Source of the DNA: Candidatus Avelusimicrobium pecoris
Lineage (GTDB): Bacteria > Elusimicrobiota > Elusimicrobia > Elusimicrobiales > Elusimicrobiaceae
NCBI GenBank assembly: GCA_902761975.1
Contig: CACWMG010000005.1
Location: 1-44,212, forward strand
Length of the DNA stretch: 44,212 nt
Direction of reading: 5' to 3'
In this document: positions 1,309-34,258 of the stretch, piece after piece
Layout of the letters: every line of letters starts with the position of its first letter
How positions within the stretch are numbered: position 1 is the first letter of the stretch
Position numbers and translations under genes: made by a program
The notes under the pieces: generated by a model
The model's database searches: none
What the model saw: the letters and a program-made list of their open reading frames with translations, nothing else
What the model was told of the DNA's origin: nothing

Positions 1309-1588
1309 GCAGTAAAAAAACAATTTGATCTGTTTTTGGAACCGTATGAAGAATACGGACGGTACCTGTGAAGGTTCGTTATCCCTCCAAAAACAGCCGA
1401 TATAATAAGCATAACACAAAGGGAATTGCAAACCTGGCGTGTTGTGCTGAATGTTTGCCACCTTTAGGTGGCAAACTACGGCTGTTTGTGGTTTAGGACT
1501 AGGGATAACGACTTAAACTATGAATTGCCGTCATTTATTTCATACTTTCCGGCAGTGCAAATTGAAACTTATGCTTAGGAGAAAAAGT
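1309..1588 (+). promoter_or_regulatory. Long structured 5' leader of pilin gene 1 (candidate cis-regulatory RNA)
   Basis: This 280-base stretch holds no gene but several paired elements: hairpin CCGTAT/ATACGG (1342-1358); a long closing stem CGTTATCCCT (1377-1386) with AGGGATAACG (1501-1510), continued by CCAAAAACAGCCG (1387-1399) with CGGCTGTTTGTGG (1479-1491); an inner stem AGCATAACAC (1408-1417) with GTGTTGTGCT (1439-1448); and hairpin TTTGCCACCT/AGGTGGCAAA (1454-1475). Together they form a three-way junction. The leader of pilin gene 2 has the same order of elements with different bases. I could not match it to a riboswitch class I know. Confidence 0.55.
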
Positions 1589-33483: not shown

Positions 33484-33996
33484 TTAATTTAGATAATGAT
33501 ATGCAAAATAACCGTCCGCAACACTACCACCTGTGTAATTATTCCGCCCCGTTTCCATTTTGCAAATTTGATGTTGAATAGAATTGAGTTCGGTGGATAT
33601 GGCTGTGCAGACACGACTTCCCGGTTCGGTTGAACCAGATAGAAAACGGTGCGAATAATTTAAACCAATGTCATCGTTTTGGCAAATAGCTTGGATGGCA
33701 GTTATTACACAAAAACCCCAGTTGTAATAGTATTTGTTATCGGTACTGGTGTTTAATTTCCCACCAGGCATGTCAATATCCAGTTCTTCAAATTTAGTGG
33801 TATATTGATTGTTGGCTAGATAATAGATTTCTTCTGCCGTTATAATACTTTTAGTTAAGTTTTTAAGTGTAGCGTATCGACTTTTTGCTACCGCTTTTTG
33901 GTATTGCGGTACTGCCACCGCCGCCAAAATACCAATGATAAGTATTACCACTAATAACTCAATTAGTGTGAATCCTGCTTTTGTTTTTTTGTTCAT
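33484..33996 (-). CDS. Type IV pilin-like protein 2
   Basis: A 170-residue prepilin: basic leader MNKKTKAG, cleavage before Phe in G|FTLIELLVVILIIGILAAVA, Glu+5, then PQYQKAVAKSRYATLKNLTK and a globular domain with EEIYYLANNQYTTKFEELDIDMPGG, closely matching pilin 3 in that part. Five cysteines lie in the C-terminal half (near GFCVITAI, AICQND, RVCTAIS, HQICKME). AAGGAGAG (34001-34008) precedes the start. It lies within an inverted-repeat unit and is preceded by a leader with a conditional terminator. Processed by prepilin peptidase; assembly genes are elsewhere. Confidence 0.9.
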   Translation of the reverse strand: MNKKTKAGFTLIELLVVILIIGILAAVAVPQYQKAVAKSRYATLKNLTKSIITAEEIYYLANNQYTTKFEELDIDMPGGKLNTSTDNKYYYNWGFCVITAIQAICQNDDIGLNYSHRFLSGSTEPGSRVCTAISTELNSIQHQICKMETGRNNYTGGSVADGYFAYHYLN

Positions 33997-34213
33997 TTTT
34001 CTCTCCTTGTTGAAAAGTGCAAAAAAAGACGACGTATTGCCTAAGCTATTCCACTAACCCGTGCAATAATCGTCGCCCGCCCACCTCTTGTGAGGTGGGC
34101 GCAAAAGCAGACGACTATTTGTGGAGTGGAATATGCATCACGGACCGCAAGTCCGTCTTGCTTAATGCAGGCTCTCCCTGCACTTCCAACAAATAATCTA
34201 ATGTATTTTACTA
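33997..34213 (-). promoter_or_regulatory. Structured leader of pilin gene 2 with terminator/antiterminator switch
   Basis: Reading on the minus strand: hairpins TGCAGG/CCTGCA (34174-34190) and ACGGAC/GTCCGT (about 34139-34157); then a long stem TATTCCACT (34125-34133) with AGTGGAATA (34047-34055), continued by AATAGTCGTC (34110-34119) with GACGATTATT (34065-34074, one G-T), enclosing hairpin GCCCACCTC/GAGGTGGGC (34079-34100). The strand 34063-34074 can instead pair with 34028-34040, followed by UUUUUUU (34021-34027), forming a terminator. The two folds exclude each other. The architecture matches the pilin 1 leader. Confidence 0.65.
34021..34074 (-). terminator. Conditional terminator inside the pilin 2 leader
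   Basis: GACGATTATTGC pairs with GCAATACGTCGTC (12 pairs, one wobble, one bulged C) across a 22-base loop and is followed by seven T, 25 bases before the pilin start codon. Confidence 0.65.
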
Positions 34214-34220
34214 CTCCTCT

Positions 34221-34229
34221 ATTGTAACA
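34221..34229 (-). promoter_or_regulatory. Extended -10 promoter of pilin gene 2
   Basis: TGTTACAAT on the minus strand, within ATTATGTTACAATAGA, as before pilin gene 1. Confidence 0.5.
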
Positions 34230-34258
34230 TAATTCATACAACCTGTGGAAAGGCCAGC

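Follow-up and report, generated by a model that had tools for sequence, protein, structure and literature searches.

A pilin-gene leader from Candidatus Avelusimicrobium pecoris as a probable three-state transcription attenuator of a new RNA family

The leader and its locus

The window, i.e. the whole stretch of 44,212 nucleotides of Candidatus Avelusimicrobium pecoris DNA that was analysed, comes from a 1.24 Mb draft genome that is 85.5% complete. A type IV pilin gene on its minus strand is preceded by a leader (34198-34022) belonging to the subfamily that we call type II; the features are collected in Table 1. Judging from the predicted promoter, the RNA is expected to start at ~34214, and homologues have a TACAAT/TATAAT-like box at the position of the −10 element of this leader. 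The score of the leader against covariance model R2 should be weighed alongside its homologues at 69-86% identity, as the leader itself is among the sequences used to build the model.

The strand GACGATTATTGC has two alternative partners, one upstream and one downstream, and both pairings lie on the minus strand, as the first-pass annotation of this DNA had claimed. Upstream, GACGATTATTGC pairs with AAATAGTCGTC to form P1 (10 bp), which together with P0 (TATTCCAC with GTGGAATA, 8 bp) makes up a two-part antiterminator stem. The annotation had the two parts right but gave 19 bp for a stem that has 18 (10 + 8). Downstream, GACGATTATTGC pairs with GCAATACGTCGTC to form a terminator of 6 + 5 bp flanking a small internal loop; this is followed by T7 and then by 24 bases to the pilin ATG. 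The seven U residues and the placement before the pilin start had been correctly noted, but the single 12-bp stem is in fact 11 bp in two parts, and the distance is 24 rather than 25 bases.

A third helix, PA, is absent from the first-pass annotation. It joins GATTATTTGTTGGA, at the 5′ end of the predicted transcript, to TCCACAAATAGTC and occupies the strand that is needed by P1, so that the 5′ strand of the antiterminator is sequestered. The 3′ part of GATTATTTGTTGGA is also common to a further helix, PZ, the other strand of which (GCACTTTTCAACAA) lies immediately ahead of the ribosome-binding site. A conserved TCTGCTTTT stretch is found directly ahead of the P3 hairpin.

Table 1. Features of the pilin leader, its surroundings and a second family member in the window
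Feature	Position	Strand	Basis or remark
Predicted sigma-70-like promoter, TCCACA-17-TACAAT	34221..34249	−	9/12 matches, TG ahead of −10
Whole leader RNA element, type II subfamily	34022..34198	−	Covariance model R2, 181.5 bits, E = 6e-43
PA 5′ strand GATTATTTGTTGGA, anti-antiterminator	34185..34198	−	96.4% of cells paired; 3 pairs with compensatory changes
Hairpin A, AGTGCAGG-GAGAG-CCTGCAT region	34165..34183	−	98.5% paired; both-side changes in 5/7 pairs
Hairpin B, variable inner stem	34135..34161	−	Both-side changes in 5/5 inner pairs
P0 5′ strand TATTCCAC, outer antiterminator	34126..34133	−	96.7% paired; 8/8 pairs with compensatory changes
PA 3′ strand TCCACAAATAGTC	34113..34125	−	Overlaps P1 5′ strand
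P1 5′ strand, inner antiterminator	34110..34119	−	98.4% paired
P3 hairpin, within P1	34079..34100	−	Both-side changes in 8/9 pairs
Shared strand GACGATTATTGC, P1 3′ strand or terminator 5′ strand	34063..34074	−	Alignment and sequential folding
P0 3′ strand GTGGAATA	34047..34054	−	In the terminator loop in the OFF state
Terminator 3′ strand GCAATACGTCGTC	34028..34040	−	97.2% of cells paired, scored inner part
U tract, T7	34021..34027	−	Sequence
Post-terminator strand GCACTTTTCAACAA	34007..34020	−	Complement of 5′ strand 34192-34180 (helix PZ)
Type IV pilin gene, 170 aa, MNKKTKAGFTLIELLVVILIIG..., downstream of leader	33484..33996	−	
Type I core upstream of another pilin	1387..1488	+	91.9 bits, model-building sequence

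Conservation of the alternative folds

A search with the leader DNA found relatives (69-86% identity) in 12 other genomes of the same genus; nearly all of them lie directly upstream of a pilin start. Alignment A2 contains 19 leaders, all from this genus. The ON state (hairpins A and B, P0, P1 and P3) has 95.8% of cells paired and 119 double-change cells compared with 33.5 in shuffled alignments; the OFF state (PA, hairpins A and B, P3 and the terminator) has 95.4% paired and 81 double-change cells compared with 22.7. None of 500 shuffles matched the ON or the OFF score, and slid controls paired 37-50%. The homologues are related to one another and the shuffle control overstates their independence; the slid control preserves the relatedness. 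Both-side changes occur in all eight P0 pairs, in three PA pairs and in two scored terminator pairs. Absence of conserved pairing in homologous leaders had been named beforehand as grounds for discarding the switch; the 19 leaders instead keep all of the alternative helices, with compensatory changes. The observation of two competing folds is confirmed and is larger than first noted. An attenuator is expected to have mutually exclusive helices that share a strand, one of them an intrinsic terminator before a gene, and to conserve both alternatives in homologues through compensatory changes; this leader meets both expectations.

The layout of a terminator and an antiterminator ahead of a gene would also suit ribosome-mediated attenuation through a leader peptide. 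That mechanism calls for a conserved short ORF with a ribosome-binding site, which the homologues do not provide: no leader ORF is conserved, those that occur lack a ribosome-binding site, and frames and lengths vary from one homologue to another. We rejected the leader peptide and regard this explanation as next to untenable.

Energy balance and sequential folding

The leader folds with −89.4 kcal/mol, compared with −55.7 kcal/mol for dinucleotide shuffles (z = −7.4, 0/200). We computed ensembles for both states, as the first-pass annotation had proposed. The ON and OFF ensembles are close in energy in most of the well aligned homologues: with totals of about −80 kcal/mol, they differ by <4 kcal/mol. 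Until the terminator strand has been synthesized, ON is the preferred state in nearly all. The energies of two homologues (L148 and L142) were set aside because they are misaligned in the terminator.

Equilibrium folding of this leader as a function of its length gives PA at 100-140 nt, invasion of PA by P1 at 145-160 nt, P0 and P1 at 165-175 nt, and PA with the terminator once the U tract is reached (185-200 nt). At 205-210 nt the fold returns to P0/P1, as GCACTTTTCAACAA pairs with the 5′ strand. Adding the coding region tips the balance again to PA and the terminator, so this final flip has to be treated with caution; all of these calculations are equilibrium thermodynamics and not kinetics. 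PZ scores better than shuffled sequences in 13 of the 19 type II homologues, with compensatory changes in three of them (L137, L141 and L143). Elsewhere in the RNA family it is weaker or missing, and it is clear in only part of type I. A universal PZ, which we had assumed at first, was dropped accordingly.

A family of leaders

The pilin gene had been described as solitary, which is incorrect: it is one of ~76 pilin-like places in the genome, 40 of which have such a leader. Most of these leaders belong to a sister subfamily, type I, which is longer and has a three-way junction built from P1, P2 (RGGCACAA..UUGUGCC), a conserved J2/3 GARU and P3; type I stands at about half of the pilin genes of this genome. 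Its core covaries, with 94.9% paired and 83 double changes compared with 24.8 in shuffles. Model R1 finds 43 type I copies in the source genome (E < 2e-5) but misses leader 34198-34022, and the second model, R2, was built for this reason. R2 picks up type I copies weakly (E of about 1e-9 to 1e-3), including the one at the other end of the window, which it places at 1327-1538 (+) with 22.6 bits; this weak recovery links types I and II. The E-values of the covariance models are rough. Together with three RNAs found only by R2, the genome contains 46 RNAs of both types, 40 of which lie 26-423 bases upstream of a pilin-like gene on the same strand. The remaining 36 of the 76 pilin-like places (for example G000:C35:4075-4530 and G000:C13:18957-19439) have no detectable R1 or R2 copy. 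Forty-six copies in 1.24 Mb, standing before about half of the pilin-like genes, would mean that one gene class relies on RNA attenuation to an unusual extent.

Tens of copies per genome, a patchy distribution and strong inverted repeats could equally describe a dispersed mobile repeat of the MITE or REP kind that merely resembles a switch. Such repeats should be near-identical and independent of context, whereas these copies differ widely, and 40 of the 46 are in the same orientation directly ahead of pilin-like genes, with a promoter box and a terminator. The P0 helix is the clearest case: 134 type I copies carry 118 distinct P0 8-mers, each of which pairs specifically with its own partner, with −17.2 kcal/mol for the own partner and −7.2 kcal/mol for swapped partners. 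The sequences of PA, P1 and the terminator differ between types I and II, and every shared strand still fits its two partners. The mobile repeat is disfavoured, and we consider it very improbable.

Of 341 genomes of the phylum, 88 have an R1 match, and these fall in six of 100 genera. The source genus and a second one share a family, and the other four come from a distant family. The genomes are drafts, the scan scored only 11 candidates in each, and the copy numbers are lower bounds. The named contigs that carry the element are from rumen and gut Elusimicrobium/Elusimicrobiaceae MAGs. In other genomes the targets include genes for outer-membrane beta-barrels, lipoproteins, glycosyltransferases of families 2, 8 and 9, RgpF, polysaccharide pyruvyl transferase and sulfatase-like enzymes, with LPS and capsule genes among them, as well as restriction-modification genes (EcoRI-type methylase, N6_N4_Mtase, HsdR_N and ResIII). 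That LPS, capsule, outer-membrane and restriction-modification genes are all among the targets points to a common principle by which gut Elusimicrobiota may control their cell surface. Pilin, surface, LPS/capsule and restriction-modification genes are classes that resemble the phase-varied genes of other bacteria.

Some further features of these loci were observed. Type I copies stand ahead of restriction-modification and LPS/capsule genes in genomes G034, G021, G111, G106, G321 and others. Several type I copies of the source genome have a 5′ end, CAATTTGATCTGTTTTTGG, that complements CCAAACAG..AAATTG near the ribosome site, ~55 bases past the terminator; in some type I copies CTCC/GGAG could mask the ribosome site, a possible translational layer. 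In many pilin genes the start codon is separated from GFTLIELL by in-frame, REP-like palindromic repeats, e.g. GTCATTCCCGA...TCGGGAATC and CCCGGCGGGG; they occur at L143, L138, L012, L019 and other pilin loci and extend the segment that processing of the prepilin should remove.

R1 and R2 are covariance models built from Elusimicrobiota leaders, a check proposed with the first-pass annotation. The Rfam covariance models gave no match on the leader at either gathering or permissive thresholds, in agreement with the earlier failure to assign it to c-di-GMP-I, c-di-GMP-II or other classes, and in a scan of the 19 loci with relatives no Rfam family matched the RNA. Sub-threshold matches to Leu_leader and Thr_leader in two loci (L014 and L020) do not overlap the RNA and were rejected. 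No description of this RNA was found in the literature among open-licence papers. On our best reading the RNA family, absent from Rfam and previously unlisted, is new.

Proposed mechanism

The alternative helices are conserved, the two states are balanced in energy and there is no Rfam match, which together support the layout of a riboswitch or protein-controlled attenuator that the first-pass annotation had proposed; the type of effector has not been shown. In our view the leader probably acts in cis as a transcription attenuator with three states and belongs to a new Elusimicrobiota RNA family. According to the folding calculations, PA would form first behind RNA polymerase, enclosing hairpins A and B. 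As the 3′ strand of P1 emerges, it would invade PA from a CGTC toehold and, with P0, build the antiterminator. The 3′ strand of the terminator, once made, could displace P1 and P0, allowing PA to re-form, and PA with the terminator would halt transcription at the U tract, ahead of the pilin gene. Read-through would follow from a signal that keeps P0/P1 in place or works against PA, and termination from one that favours PA. After read-through in type II, the freed 5′ strand and the bases before the ribosome site may form PZ, with the calculated return to ON.

The helices, their conservation, the energy balance and the gene context are established from sequence and calculation. The response of the switch to a signal, and the identity of that signal, are both inferred, as expression and termination data are lacking for these uncultured bacteria. 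Several other points weigh against the three-state attenuator: no ligand pocket has been identified, few unpaired bases are invariant across the two subfamilies, simple metabolite feedback would not suit genes as diverse as those downstream, and PZ is confined to part of the RNA family.

Candidate signals

Most likely the signal is an external one common to many surface genes, either a second messenger, for instance c-di-GMP, or an RNA-binding protein. A new class of ligand-binding riboswitch, responding for example to c-di-GMP or another cyclic dinucleotide, would have as its aptamer PA with hairpins A and B, or the P1-P2-P3 junction. The mutually exclusive folds and the conserved junctions (J2/3 GARU in type I, TCTGCTTTT in type II) are in keeping with this, as is the surface type of the controlled genes. 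With three GGDEF matches and one PilZ match in the genome, c-di-GMP is a possible signal, although this evidence is only circumstantial. There is also a precedent in Clostridioides difficile, where c-di-GMP riboswitches control the major pilin gene pilA1 (PMC6200980). Set against these points are the lack of an Rfam riboswitch match, the restriction-modification targets, which would be unusual for c-di-GMP, and the lack of a defined invariant binding pocket. We hold the ligand riboswitch as a possibility, and only tentatively.

Few conserved unpaired bases alongside a conserved stem geometry would fit an attenuator in which an RNA-binding protein stabilizes the antiterminator or PA, as would the very large set of co-regulated targets within one genome. 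Of the two regulators looked for in the 85.5% complete genome, CsrA was not found, and NusG was seen once, without an RfaH/LoaP-like paralogue. We regard protein control as a possibility, though a weak one.

The P2 loops of type I raise another reading, in which the leaders form symmetric kissing-loop dimers through a palindromic P2 loop and thereby alter the stability of the antiterminator; the partners would be a nascent leader and a released terminated leader, or another copy of the same loop class. Twenty-five distinct P2 loops are carried by 95 type I copies. Every one of the 20 loops that reach 6 nt includes a palindrome of 4 nt or longer, and 15 of them include one of 6 nt, where shuffles average 7.9 and 1.3, respectively (0/20000). 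The cores include UAAUUA, UUAUAA, UUCGAA, UUGCAA, UCAUGA, CUAUAG, GUGCAC, GAUC, GUAC and GGCC. Of 16 P2 loops from the second genus and the distant family, 14 similarly have a palindrome. The loops of P3, hairpin A and hairpin B have no excess of palindromes, with few of them long enough to test. Change from one palindrome to another has been used as evidence of symmetric intermolecular loops in OLE and GOLLD, and the type I P2 loops meet this kissing-loop criterion of a palindrome that is kept while its sequence changes (PMC12286853).

Two short loop classes (GACG and TCGCT) are nevertheless non-palindromic, the P2 loops are related by descent, so that the independent events number fewer than 20, and dimerization might leave termination unaffected. 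The leader 34198-34022, being type II, has no P2, and P2 dimerization is thus not its own mechanism. Type I leaders may dimerize, but this is inferred from the loop sequences in the absence of any dimer data, and control through such dimers we think unlikely. Leader-leader pairing through the palindromic P2 loop is still a serious candidate for the signal in type I, or for part of it, and the palindromic loops make dimerization directly testable. We know of no attenuator for which leader dimerization has been described as a form of RNA-RNA control. A more sweeping proposal, that variable surface and DNA-modification genes are generally controlled by a phylum-specific switch, set in type I by leader-leader P2 pairing, is more unlikely still. 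If it were true, transcripts would sense their own or each other's abundance, with an all-or-none choice among dozens of pilins.

Comparison with known systems

RfaH/ops and LoaP leaders, which represent protein-dependent attenuators and processive antitermination, are known systems in which leader elements control surface polysaccharide and pilus genes. They differ from the present case in that the genome has a single NusG and the present element acts as an alternative fold. The amino-acid operon leaders Leu_leader and Thr_leader share the terminator/antiterminator leader, but the present RNA has no leader peptide. The c-di-GMP-II riboswitch of C. difficile pilA1 is likewise a 5′ leader with mutually exclusive folds ahead of type IV pilin and surface genes; the present RNA differs in having three competing helices, in the post-terminator helix of one subfamily and in its lack of an Rfam match. 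With OLE, GOLLD and ROOL, type I shares the replacement of a loop palindrome by other palindromes (PMC12286853). Those are large non-coding RNAs, whereas the present RNAs are mRNA leaders of ~200 nt with a terminator.
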